Positions 17,613 through 25,768 of a DNA stretch of 60,336 nt are shown here, one piece after another (positions within the stretch are counted from its first letter, which is position 1; each line of letters starts with the position of its first letter). The DNA is taken from the NCBI GenBank assembly GCA_040756435.1, contig JBFLZD010000017.1:1-60336 (forward strand), in the 5' to 3' direction. The stretch is from Spirochaetota bacterium. Its GTDB lineage: Bacteria > Spirochaetota > UBA4802 > UB4802. Position numbers and translations under genes: made by a program. Below the pieces are notes generated by a model, which had not been told where the DNA came from, ran no database searches, and saw only the letters and a list, made by a program, of their open reading frames with translations.

Positions 17613-17643
17613 AAAAGAGCGGCTTTTTCACAGCCGCTCTTTT
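17613..17643. terminator. bidirectional terminator between converging genes
   Basis: AAAAGAGCGGCT and AGCCGCTCTTTT pair around a 7-base loop, with A- and T-runs on either side, so it works in both directions. The stop codon of the minus-strand gene (17628-17630) lies in the loop. Confidence 0.9.
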
Positions 17644-18668
17644 ACATATTTTGCAATAACATTTTGTGCAGCTTCAGACATTTCAATAAATTTAAATGTA
17701 TAATAGATGATCTTTTCTTTTGTAATAGTCCGTGAAGCCAAAATTTTGCTAACTATCTCAATTTTAAAATTTTCCAGAGTAAAAAACAGGGTATATTCAT
17801 GTTGATACTGTAATGTTTTTTCAACCCGTACAACTGCTTCAAATTCATTAAGCCGTTCAATTGTGCCATTTACTATCTCATTATCATCATGTTGTATGAT
17901 TGCTTCTTCCTCTTCTTTATCTTCTTTTTTCCTCTGGATACTGCAGGGTATGAGCGTCTGTATAAATGGATGATGGACTTCTTTTCCCCGTTTTATAGCT
18001 TCAGGTTTTTTTAATATTATTGTGTTTTCCTGTATTGCTGTAATTTCAGATTCAAAGGAATATTCAGCATCACCACTTCTAAAAAAGAATATTGATACAG
18101 GTTCAGTTATTATTTCATCGGGAAGTTGTCCTGGCTTTCTGAAATATCTGCAATGGATTGCATCTTCTGCAATCAGCATAATTTTTGCTATAAATGCTCT
18201 ACCGGTCTGGCTATATCCACAAACCAGTGTATCTGTAGATATATCCTCAATTGAATCAAGTGGTTGCTGATATTCTACAGGGTTATAAATTCGTTCATAT
18301 GTAATAACTATATCCTTGAAGATATCCTTTAAATCTTCAGGGGGTTCTTTGAGTTTGGCCATATATTGCAAAAATTTAACTAAACCTGTTTCAAATAAAG
18401 CTTTATTGATGAATATAATTTCAGGTGAACTGAGTTTGGATAGTGCAACAATATGCTGCAGTATACGAACCTGGTAACCGGTAAGTCCCCGCTGTCGGGC
18501 TTTGTATATAAAAATTTGCTCTAAGCTGGATTTTTTTAGTTTGAGATATTGATTATATTTCAGCAATGCAAAGAATGCTATTACTAAAAGGATTACAAAT
18601 ACTGTTAATCCCACCTCCCATAAGGGAGCAACACGCCAGCGAACACCAAAAACGGTAATTATTTCCAT
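17628..18668 (-). CDS. membrane-anchored protein, possibly PilZ/YcgR-like
   Basis: The 346-residue protein has one N-terminal membrane helix (about 20-40), a helical middle part, and two beta-rich regions. The first (about 170-235: EPVSIFFFRSGDAEYSFESEITAI) resembles the YcgR N-terminal/PilZ fold, and the second (about 260-345) is similar in texture. The usual c-di-GMP-binding RxxxR and DxSxxG motifs are not clearly present, so nucleotide binding is unproven. The start overlaps the end of the upstream minus-strand gene by 10 bases, suggesting coupling. A GGDEF protein is encoded at 23919. Confidence 0.55.
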   Translation of the reverse strand: MEIITVFGVRWRVAPLWEVGLTVFVILLVIAFFALLKYNQYLKLKKSSLEQIFIYKARQRGLTGYQVRILQHIVALSKLSSPEIIFINKALFETGLVKFLQYMAKLKEPPEDLKDIFKDIVITYERIYNPVEYQQPLDSIEDISTDTLVCGYSQTGRAFIAKIMLIAEDAIHCRYFRKPGQLPDEIITEPVSIFFFRSGDAEYSFESEITAIQENTIILKKPEAIKRGKEVHHPFIQTLIPCSIQRKKEDKEEEEAIIQHDDNEIVNGTIERLNEFEAVVRVEKTLQYQHEYTLFFTLENFKIEIVSKILASRTITKEKIIYYTFKFIEMSEAAQNVIAKYVKERL

Positions 18669-19123: not shown

Positions 19124-21988
19124 ATGATTAAGAAATATACATATACGCTCATTGCAATAATGGTTTGTATAGCTCTTCCATTATTAACATATCCTTTTGG
19201 CAAAAATAAGGTAACTATCGAACCATTCAAATGGCACATATTAAAGACAATCCATTGTAATGTGTATTATCCCTATGGGATGGAGCAGCTTGCTACAAAA
19301 ACCGCTGTTATAGCTGAAAAGGCTTATGTCCATATAGCTGACGCATTGCAACACGAACTCAATGACCCGGTGCCAATCATTGTGTATCCATCACATATTG
19401 ATTTTCAGGAAAATAACATTCTTCTGCAAATTATTGGGGAAGGAACTGGTGGTTTTACCGAAGCGTTTAAAAATAGAGTGGTTGTGCCTTTTAATGGTTC
19501 GTATGATGAATTTCAGCATGTGCTGGTACATGAGCTGGTGCACGCATTTCAATATAATATTTTAATGCGCGATAGTTCCGGAAAAATGCAGTCACTCATG
19601 AGTATGGGTGGCGTACCCTTATGGTTTACTGAAGGCATGGCCGAGTATTTGTCGATTGGCTTTGATGAAACTGCAGATATGACCATGCGCGATTTCTTTC
19701 TGAACGATCAGTATGTCAGTTTGATTGATTTTACCACATATCGTGTTGGGAACATGTATTACTACTATAAGGTTGGTCAGGCTTTTTTTTATTATTTTGA
19801 AACAACGTATGGAAAAGGTAAAATTGGGGAATTTTTGCGAGATATACGGGATCTGGATAACTTTGAAGAAGCATTGAAGGTACACACAAAGAAAAACCTT
19901 GAAGAAATTGATACTGAATTTAAACATTTTTATAAAAAGCGCTTTTATCCCATCATAGCAGGAAGAAATTTTGATGAAGAAGAAGGACAGCGAATAACCA
20001 ACCATCAAAAGACGCGTTCACTATTTAATACCTGCCCTGCCATCTCACCCGATGGGAAAAAAATTGCCTATATTGACAACAGGGATATCTATTCCTCCAT
20101 TTCAATACTAACTATTGGCCAGGAGCAAGCTGAAGAAAAAGCGCGTGTCATACTTACAGGCAATGAAACATCTGAATTTGAAGGGATGCATTTGCTTGAT
20201 AACTATCTGTCATGGACACCTGATGGTAAAGGCATTGTGTTTGTATCGCAGTCTAGAAACAGGGATGTTATATTTATTATTGATGCCAGTAATGGAAAAA
20301 TTTTGAATGAAATTGTATTGCCATTCAGATCACTAAAGGATCCTGCGCTATCACCTGATGGAAAATTTATATGTTTCATTGGGCAAACAAATATACAAAG
20401 TGATGTTTATATCTATTCATTGAACGATAAATCATTGAAACAGGTAACACACGATGTATACAGTGAGCGCTATCCAAAACTTAATGCTGATAATACCATT
20501 ATCTTTTATTCATCTAATTACCCTGCAGGAGATTATACCAGCCAGCAGTATGCCATCATTAAACATACACTTTTAACAAATGCACGCGAAATTATTGTAC
20601 AACCGCAGTCAAAAAATTTACAGGTTGATATTGCTAAGGATGGGAATAGCATTGTGTATATCTCAAACAGGGAAGGAATATACAATATTTATCAATATGA
20701 TATATCCAAATCATCTGAAACAAAGATAACCAATGCATCAACCGGTATATTTTATCCACGCGTATTTCCTGATGCAAGCAAAATTGCATTTGTATCATAT
20801 CAAAATGGTGGATATGATATTTTCATCAAAAAAGACATTAAACCAGTAACTATCGCTCCCCCTTATAATACTGAGCATATACCCGTTATGTTGCCTCAAA
20901 GCTATTTCCCGTTGTCACAGGCTATATGGGACAATTACACAACGACAGTATCGCCCGACTGGGTGTTTTTTGGACTTGGTGGCACGGTGGGATATGGTTT
21001 TGCTGGTTTTGCGCAGATGAGTTTCAGCGATTATTTAGGTGACAACCGCATTGTGGTAACTACGGATTATCTTCGCTATGGCAGCAGTGCTAATTATTTG
21101 AACTGGGATGTGCAGTACCTTTACCTGCGTTACCGGTGGGATTATTCATTGGGATTTTTCAGGCAAAAAAATCCTTTTGGCATATTTACCCTGGCAAGTA
21201 TAAATGATCTTATTCACAATGCCTACTGGTCCACTCTGTCTATGGATCATTATGGTGTATATGCCATTGCAAGCTACCCATTTACCAGGTTTTCCCGGTT
21301 CAGCACCCGTGTTTCGTCAAGTCGCTATGAGCGTGATTACAGTTACCTGGATCAGCGTCCAGATGTTTATGCCAATTTAAATTCAGTATCGGTATCATAC
21401 AATTACGATAATGTATTGTGGGGTTTTCTGGTTCCCTTACGGGGTACACGTGGTCAGATAATGTTTACCCAGGTTGTTAATTTGACAGGCCAGGATTATT
21501 CTTTTAGTAGTATTGATATTGATATACGACAGTATTTCTTTCTGGACAAACAGTATGTGCTTGCATTCAGAGGAATTGGTGGGAAAATAATTGGTGAAAA
21601 GAAAGAATATTTCAAGTACTATATTGGTGGATTCAATACCCTGCGCGGGCATCCGTTTATAGAATATGGTGGTACCAATGTTTTCCTGTTCAACGCTGAA
21701 TTCAGGTTTACGTTCATTGAATCAATACAGATGGGATGGCCATTGTTTTTAAAAATTGGTAATATTGGTGGAGTTTTATTTGTTGATGCTGGTTCGGCGT
21801 GGGATAATAACTATACTTTTATGAATAAGAATACAGGAGAATTTCAGGACTTCAAAATGGATATGGGTTTTGGATTTCGCCTTACATTGTATCCCATCGT
21901 TATTTTAAAGCTTGACTATGCCTGGCCGTATTATTATGGAAGGTTTGGTAATAAAGAAATTGTTTTCAGTTTAGGATATGAGTTTTAA
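19124..21988 (+). CDS. outer-membrane peptidase MA-like / beta-propeller / barrel fusion
   Basis: A 954-residue exported protein with an N-terminal signal helix (about 5-25). Next comes a gluzincin-type peptidase domain with HELVH at 136-140 and a downstream Glu in WFTEGMAEY (about 167-175), consistent with zinc binding and catalysis. Residues of about 305-560 contain TolB-type beta-propeller (PD40) repeats (CPAISPDGKKIAYI, PALSPDGKFICFI). The last third (about 620-954) resembles an Omp85/BamA-type barrel, with GGFNTLRGHPF and a terminal SLGYEF ending in Phe. It probably sits in the outer membrane with peptidase and propeller in the periplasm. No strong ribosome site is visible. hisB follows 18 bases later. 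Confidence 0.82.
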   Translation: MIKKYTYTLIAIMVCIALPLLTYPFGKNKVTIEPFKWHILKTIHCNVYYPYGMEQLATKTAVIAEKAYVHIADALQHELNDPVPIIVYPSHIDFQENNILLQIIGEGTGGFTEAFKNRVVVPFNGSYDEFQHVLVHELVHAFQYNILMRDSSGKMQSLMSMGGVPLWFTEGMAEYLSIGFDETADMTMRDFFLNDQYVSLIDFTTYRVGNMYYYYKVGQAFFYYFETTYGKGKIGEFLRDIRDLDNFEEALKVHTKKNLEEIDTEFKHFYKKRFYPIIAGRNFDEEEGQRITNHQKTRSLFNTCPAISPDGKKIAYIDNRDIYSSISILTIGQEQAEEKARVILTGNETSEFEGMHLLDNYLSWTPDGKGIVFVSQSRNRDVIFIIDASNGKILNEIVLPFRSLKDPALSPDGKFICFIGQTNIQSDVYIYSLNDKSLKQVTHDVYSERYPKLNADNTIIFYSSNYPAGDYTSQQYAIIKHTLLTNAREIIVQPQSKNLQVDIAKDGNSIVYISNREGIYNIYQYDISKSSETKITNASTGIFYPRVFPDASKIAFVSYQNGGYDIFIKKDIKPVTIAPPYNTEHIPVMLPQSYFPLSQAIWDNYTTTVSPDWVFFGLGGTVGYGFAGFAQMSFSDYLGDNRIVVTTDYLRYGSSANYLNWDVQYLYLRYRWDYSLGFFRQKNPFGIFTLASINDLIHNAYWSTLSMDHYGVYAIASYPFTRFSRFSTRVSSSRYERDYSYLDQRPDVYANLNSVSVSYNYDNVLWGFLVPLRGTRGQIMFTQVVNLTGQDYSFSSIDIDIRQYFFLDKQYVLAFRGIGGKIIGEKKEYFKYYIGGFNTLRGHPFIEYGGTNVFLFNAEFRFTFIESIQMGWPLFLKIGNIGGVLFVDAGSAWDNNYTFMNKNTGEFQDFKMDMGFGFRLTLYPIVILKLDYAWPYYYGRFGNKEIVFSLGYEF

Positions 21989-25162: not shown

Positions 25163-25225
25163 AAAGCATCTTTTAGGACTATCTCAATATATGTAATTGT
25201 ATATTAATAATAAGGGATATTGGTT

Positions 25226-25768
25226 ATGGTATATAAGAAGGACAACGGAATTATACATTGTTTTAAGTACATTGCAGCACTTTTAGTTATTACATTTTCT
25301 GTAAATTTTATTGGTTACCCGTTAATAGCGCAAACAATAGAATCTGATGCTGGTAAAAAATATAAAGATGTTCCCTATCAGGACGAATTTTCCAAAAAAG
25401 CACAGGAGCGCCGTGAAGAATCGCCTAACATGCAACGGGATCCACGGCTGGCATGTCTTTTGTCATTAATAATTCCTGGAGGTGGGCATGTTTATCTGCG
25501 CAATGACCTCAAAGCAGCAGGTTTTTGCCTGTTAACAGCTACAGCATATTCAGTTTCGGCATATTATCTTTATGTTGCATTGATGAAAACAGACTCATCA
25601 ACCGAAAGAAAATCACGACTTATCCTATCAGGGTTATTATTTGTTGTTGGAGCACTTATTCATGTAGTTGGTATTGTTGAGGCATATAATGACGCAATTG
25701 AAATTAATGAAAAGCAGTTTTACTTTGGAACTGAAAAATCTGTAAGTCCCTATGTTGCAAAGAATTAA
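25226..25768 (+). CDS. exported/membrane protein, DUF5683-like
   Basis: A 180-residue protein with an N-terminal signal or membrane helix (about 10-35, ending near AQTIES), a polar charged stretch, then two more hydrophobic segments (about 85-110 and 130-155). SLIIPGGGHVYLRNDLKAAG resembles the small-residue/glycine start of the first helix in DUF5683/TM2-like proteins. The role of that family is unknown. The ATG at 25226 has AAGGG upstream, and its own promoter lies at 25134. Confidence 0.65.
   Translation: MVYKKDNGIIHCFKYIAALLVITFSVNFIGYPLIAQTIESDAGKKYKDVPYQDEFSKKAQERREESPNMQRDPRLACLLSLIIPGGGHVYLRNDLKAAGFCLLTATAYSVSAYYLYVALMKTDSSTERKSRLILSGLLFVVGALIHVVGIVEAYNDAIEINEKQFYFGTEKSVSPYVAKN

Follow-up and report, generated by a model that had tools for sequence, protein, structure and literature searches.

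A Spirochaete Omp85-Type Barrel Protein with a TolB-Like Propeller and a Predicted Zinc Peptidase Domain in One Chain

Architecture of the Protein

The window, by which we mean the whole stretch of 60,336 nucleotides of spirochaete DNA analyzed here, carries an open reading frame (19124..21988, +) that starts with ATG and codes for a product of 954 amino acids. The reading frame, its Pfam matches and its full-length homologues define an order of signal, metallopeptidase, TolB-like propeller and Omp85 barrel, and these parts almost certainly belong to one chain. An initial annotation, made from the letters of the sequence, had listed a signal, a HELVH peptidase-type domain, a TolB-like propeller and a BamA-like barrel within one 954-residue protein, and Pfam, hhalign and conservation among the homologues all agree with it.

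The product opens with a signal-peptide-like N-terminus at about residues 1–24 (19124..19195, +), recognized by its hydrophobic segment and by alignment and not from a tool-predicted cleavage site; the best 12-residue Kyte–Doolittle mean of the segment is 2.96, a value of 1.6 is reached by 66 of 69 homologues, and the alignment places a conserved FGKNK motif directly after it. A lipobox pattern was found in none of the 69 homologues. The POTRA model is absent from the 11 Pfam hits of the whole protein at E ≤ 1, and patatin, M48 and TPR models are likewise missing among the Pfam hits of the whole protein. The genome holds one full-length copy of the gene, with a single match to Peptidase_MA_2 and five to Omp85. 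The four other Omp85 matches (C88, C23, C2 and C21) include one in an 848-aa frame, the size of BamA; the remaining three, in frames of 405–457 aa, are perhaps of the "noNterm" kind.

The Peptidase Domain and Its Active Site

Residues 28–288 (19205..19987, +) form, according to Pfam and profile alignments, a Peptidase MA (gluzincin-like) domain. The Peptidase_MA_2 model (PF13485) matches residues 64–269 with 30.7 bits when the whole protein is searched, below the curated cut-off of 32.4, and clears that cut-off with the domain alone (34.6 bits) and in the genome search (34.7 bits); among the homologues, 66 of 71 peptidase regions match it at E ≤ 0.01. Three sites stand out within the domain. 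The predicted zinc-binding motif HELVH occupies residues 136–140 (19529..19543, +), and 65 of the 71 homologues retain H136, E137 and H140 together; E170-G171 (19631..19636, +), a putative third zinc ligand, is invariant (71/71); and Y215-K216-x-G-Q219 (19766..19780, +), a putative catalytic-tyrosine motif, aligns with the Y-x-K-G motif of the M1 family, which contains the catalytic tyrosine. Across the 71 homologues, the near-invariant positions include H136, E137, H140, E174, Y215, K216, G218 and Q219, and the number of residues between the second histidine and the glutamate varies from 19 to 30 among the intact members.

The family profile of the domain aligns with the solved M1 aminopeptidase 3cia at E 4.8e-4, with HExxH, the glutamate of WLxEG and Y-x-KGQ all in register, and weakly in the same register with Escherichia coli PepN (hhalign probability 0.8, E 0.067). 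The match to BepA (probability 17.7, E 0.0014) covers 34 columns, around HExxH only. In the intact homologues, columns with entropy below 0.5 bit make up 24 of 256 in the peptidase, 2 of 290 in the propeller and 26 of 355 in the barrel, and the greater conservation of the two outer regions is what one would expect if enzyme and barrel were both under selection. An AlphaFold2 model of the peptidase domain alone, built from a six-row alignment, was poor (pLDDT 51.8) and gave zero matches to the PDB at E ≤ 0.001, so that the zinc site is called from the sequence. A chance origin of the HELVH motif can be ruled out, given its conservation in 65 of 71 homologues, far above chance, and the coordinated manner in which the active site is lost. 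From these residues, the domain would bind zinc and catalyze proteolysis, and the protein of the window is probably an active peptidase.

Loss of the Catalytic Site

Six of the 71 homologues (G031, G027, G015, G019, G033 and G034) lack HExxH. None of the six keeps Y215 or K216, all six have lost T112, and the neighboring G218 and Q219 are kept in five and in all six, respectively. On a tree built by a quick method without the motif columns, on which G019 forms a long branch of unsure placement, the loss of HExxH amounts to two changes, pointing to at least two losses of the catalytic site. Relative to the barrel, the identity of the peptidase region differs by a mean of −4.1 in the degenerate members that have a barrel (n = 5) vs. 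+5.1 in the intact ones (n = 60), the lowest intact row being at −4.3; this comparison left out L092 and five reference rows from the genus of the window. We read these patterns as two lineages in which catalysis was lost and the remainder of the protein retained. In those two, the domain is probably a pseudopeptidase; most lineages probably have a working enzyme.

The initial annotation had offered two alternatives, an outer-membrane-anchored periplasmic peptidase or a structural protein with a degenerate peptidase fold. With members of both kinds present, both alternatives occur in the family. The former appears to fit the intact lineages, that of the window included, which combine HExxH...E, Y-K-x-G-Q, the Omp85 barrel and a C-terminal aromatic residue; the latter describes the two other lineages (6/71) and not that of the window, which keeps the full site.

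Propeller and Barrel

The TolB-like PD40 beta-propeller lies at about residues 286–575 (19979..20848, +), as placed by Pfam, AlphaFold2 and Foldseek. Pfam PD40 scores 79.6 bits over five stretches, and the full-length AlphaFold2 model from the six-row alignment, which is good for the propeller only, has pLDDT values mostly of 55–87 at about residues 360–575. With the propeller model as a query, Foldseek ranks TolB first (E 1.6e-13), and the propeller is closest to TolB in both sequence and fold. This does not make the protein a TolB, a candidate identity that was rejected on its score of 94.9 bits against the TolB equivalog cut-off of 343.

The C-terminal Omp85-type barrel region covers residues 590–954 (20891..21985, +) and is identified by Pfam, hhalign and the homologues. 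Omp85 (PF01103) matches residues 673–954 with 59 bits against a cut-off of 24; the family profile of the barrel finds E. coli BamA (hhalign probability 96.8, E 2.1e-10) and TamA (probability 96.4, E 1.1e-9), and it aligns with the solved chain 9ccg to the very last residue of that chain (E 8.7e-20). The same Pfam model is found in 59 of 69 homologue barrel regions at E ≤ 0.001 and missed in the other ten. Recognizable motifs are GGFNTLRGH at residues 835–843, of which G835, G836 and R841 are near invariant in the homologue alignment, and the C-terminal ...GYEF. A C-terminal aromatic residue is usual for outer-membrane barrels, and F or Y ends the protein in 68 of 69 homologues, a count that, like the barrel alignment, excludes L078 (at a contig end) and L092 (a 586-aa open frame with no barrel). 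Structure prediction, proposed as a check by the initial annotation, thus recovered the propeller and was uninformative either way for the other two parts, the barrel having a pLDDT of ~20–30 in the full-length, six-row model and the peptidase one of 52; the barrel, like the zinc site, is identified by profile evidence, with the propeller alone confirmed by structure prediction.

Distribution of the Family

Among 296 sampled Spirochaetota genomes, 84 contain matches to the gene at E ≤ 1e-15, many of them full length. With no match at that threshold in the other 212, the protein does not qualify as a core assembly factor of the phylum as a whole; it is an old spirochaete family, mostly vertically kept. 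Of the sequences from the matching genomes, 71 were examined and 13 excluded, 11 as short or partial and two complete ones (G181 and G213) that were used for the neighborhood only.

No relatives were found in viral contigs. On plasmids, there is one clear relative, on Salinibacter ruber pSR116 (L099:3893-5806, WP_118831798.1), a 637-aa protein annotated as "basic secretory protein-like protein" that has a similar FGKNK start, HELVH and the propeller and ends after the latter with no barrel. At least one bacterium of another phylum therefore has the enzyme–propeller unit on its own. In 18 other plasmid records, the match, judged by the residues covered, is confined to the propeller part, and one of these, from Gemmatirosa, reads as a propeller-repeat protein.

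Gene Neighborhood

In the window, hisB begins 18 bp downstream of the gene. Of the 40 loci compared, 9 have a hisB cluster close to the gene, every one of them from the genus or order of the window, and flanks vary in other families; with the linkage confined to one order, a part in histidine synthesis was rejected. Two further neighbors of the gene recur in its order, a 346-aa frame at 17628-18668 (−) in 3 of 23 loci and a 182-aa frame at 25220-25768 (+) in 5 of 23, and neither has a Pfam match at E ≤ 0.001.

The initial annotation had stated that the position before his genes offers no clue, which is fair for the order of the window. In one distant family, f34, the neighborhood does offer one: all 17 of its matching genomes, from eight genera, have a gene for a membrane-anchored protein of ~700 aa (alignment A5) arranged head-to-head with that of the barrel. 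The 17 comprise 14 of 14 loci of the neighborhood comparison, G181 and G213, and G205, the last one by position; the loci with the neighbor are L116, L117, L118, L123–L133, L148 and L149. Profile matches to the two genes usually lie within ~100 bases of each other, the maximum being 269, and overlap slightly in two cases. In 9 of 14 f34 loci, the A5 gene is joined by a small cluster (113–177 aa), of which one member has a lipoprotein-like N-terminus (c115).

We assign A5 to the AsmA/TamB clan with reservation, given that the sequence matches are weak and transitive. Pfam finds DUF748, weakly, in 2 of 14 members, and the hhalign match to E. coli AsmA, also weak, covers the N-terminus (probability 21, E 0.001); against TamB, the E-value is 0.053, vs. 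0.2 for the unrelated Wzc. The A5 profile also picks up a protein of 1509 aa that has a Pfam TamB domain and adjoins an ORF with POTRA repeats (L143:4-5998, G290), and among the weak genome matches of the profile are AsmA-family proteins in the genome of the window and in G014 (PF05170 above cut-off). The former is a 698-aa protein (C13, L142:4162-6255; PF05170 38 bits), a distant relative of the f34 neighbor. The G290 locus, where the ORF has five POTRA repeats, is a TamB/BamA-type pair of another spirochaete family.

The head-to-head arrangement in f34 is a TamA/TamB-like pairing, seen in one family only. Against a tight partnership of the two genes count G178, which has an A5 gene without the barrel gene nearby, G065, with an A5-related gene and no match to the barrel gene, and the incomplete genomes G217 and G219, with an A5 match only.

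A Possible Role in the Outer Membrane

Diderm bacteria rely on Omp85 proteins to build their outer membrane. The reading that we prefer, with a probability of about 45%, is that the protein is a periplasm-facing peptidase, anchored in the outer membrane and acting in outer-membrane biogenesis or quality control. The periplasmic topology is suggested by the Omp85 architecture and by the patatin-like Omp85 PlpD (PMC11116518, in its available text), and the role by the architecture, the conservation and the gene pairing in one family. In this picture, the TolB-like propeller and the gluzincin zinc peptidase would extend from the N-terminal side of an Omp85-type barrel into the periplasm, where the propeller would dock a client or a partner; the barrel, through the conserved Omp85 motifs, would engage the membrane and possibly the strands of the client; and the peptidase would trim or destroy clients whose assembly has stalled. 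Such a protein could be a single-chain counterpart of E. coli BamA, BamB and BepA, which contribute a barrel, a propeller and an M48 peptidase, respectively; in the two lineages in which the enzyme appears dead, the binding and barrel role would be all that is left. We regard as rather doubtful the more specific idea of a POTRA-less, TAM-like system, in which one self-sufficient chain of Omp85 barrel, TolB/BamB-like propeller and quality-control zinc protease would, in some spirochaetes, work with an AsmA/TamB-type bridge of its own and have had the enzyme switched off independently in two lineages.

The intact and strongly conserved active site would also suit a protease that matures specific secreted or surface proteins by processing pro-peptides, lipoproteins or surface-layer proteins, the barrel being an anchor or exit channel and general quality control playing no part. 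The barrel-less S. ruber homologue, in which HELVH is kept, provides an example of the enzyme module without a barrel, and the patchy occurrence of the family (84/296) would agree with a specialized client; however, no candidate substrate gene recurs next to the gene in the 40 loci, where nearby ORFs of at least 90 aa were compared, and two lineages that retain the propeller and barrel can do without the enzyme. We consider a maturation protease unlikely, if well within reach.

Those two lineages speak for another reading, an envelope tether or scaffold that would hold on to a Pal-like or peptidoglycan partner with its propeller and be anchored by its barrel, with the peptidase secondary or regulatory: catalytic residues have been lost at least twice, the complete copies keep all three regions, and the propeller is most TolB-like by both sequence and fold. 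A mere tether is nevertheless improbable given that the whole site is kept in 65 of 71 homologues, that conservation is higher in the peptidase columns than in the propeller and that the TolB equivalog score falls so far below its cut-off.

The f34 neighbor raises yet another alternative, a terminus of lipid transport, where lipids would reach the outer membrane with the help of the barrel and an AsmA/TamB-clan bridge, the latter being regulated by the peptidase. The head-to-head gene in all 17 f34 genomes speaks for it, and AsmA-like proteins have been tied to phospholipid transport (PMC12045153, in its available text), but with the pairing limited to one family and A5 resembling AsmA/TamB through weak, transitive matches only, we judge it quite improbable. 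Highly improbable, finally, is a surface-exposed protease, its peptidase and propeller translocated by the barrel as was once proposed for PlpD: the fusion of an enzyme to an Omp85 barrel does resemble the type Vd layout, but the enzyme domain of PlpD remains periplasmic (PMC11116518, in its available text), and a folded region of ~550 residues would presumably need to pass through a 16-strand barrel.

The spirochaete family brings to WD40-Omp85 proteins a putative catalytic activity whose residues can be named, and its degenerate members serve as natural dead-enzyme controls; f34 contributes a candidate partner of the AsmA/TamB type. With these three, the role becomes directly testable.

Relation to Known Systems

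The f34 pair shares with TamA/TamB (TAM) and BamA/TamB the pairing of an Omp85 gene with one of the AsmA/TamB clan. It differs from TamA/TamB in having no POTRA, in being divergent and not operonic and in the partner, which is ~700 aa long and weakly TamB/AsmA-like; we found no report, in the open-licence literature, of an Omp85 gene divergent from an AsmA-like gene. BamA and TamA have POTRA repeats before the barrel, whereas the spirochaete protein has none by Pfam. With BepA, the E. coli M48 peptidase at the BAM complex (PMC8423444, in its available text), the likeness would be one of working principle, a periplasmic zinc peptidase beside an Omp85 barrel; BepA, however, is a separate protein of the M48 family, and only its HExxH stretch matches. 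The S. ruber protein WP_118831798.1 shares the HELVH peptidase, the propeller and the FGKNK-like start, with the barrel missing. No description of an Omp85 protein with both a TolB-like propeller and a peptidase was found in the open-licence literature.

PF00149 (Pfam name Metallophos) is, as we take it, a phosphoesterase and not a peptidase family. It is the family assigned to the "Metallo" (metalloprotease) Omp85 subfamily in the available text of PMC4104836. That subfamily, too, joins a metal-dependent N-terminal domain to an Omp85 barrel, but with PF00149 in place of the PF13485 of the window's protein, which suggests that the literature label "metalloprotease Omp85" sits on a phosphoesterase-type family. 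The main text of PMC4104836, as far as available, contains no word starting with "peptidase" and uses "metalloprotease" for another subfamily, and a genuine peptidase-type Omp85 goes unmentioned there. In PlpD, the enzymatic N-terminal domain stays in the periplasm (PMC11116518, in its available text), and an N-terminal enzyme domain is similarly fused to an Omp85 barrel; PlpD, however, has a patatin lipase and POTRA where the spirochaete protein has a metallopeptidase and propeller, with POTRA not hit.

Heinz and Lithgow (2014) defined ten subfamilies of Omp85/TpsB proteins, WD40-Omp85 included, and noted the likeness of the latter to TolB (PMC4104836, in its available text). Several POTRA-less subfamilies have a name but are little characterized, and a 2024 paper, as available, still ranks the metalloprotease and WD40-like kinds among these (PMC11116518); a dedicated study of WD40-Omp85 was not found in the open-licence literature, where absence is no proof. 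By its described architecture, this subfamily is the closest published kind, with an Omp85 barrel that follows a TolB-like propeller and no POTRA detected (PMC4104836, in its available text), and the spirochaete protein differs from it by the gluzincin-type metallopeptidase domain that precedes the propeller.
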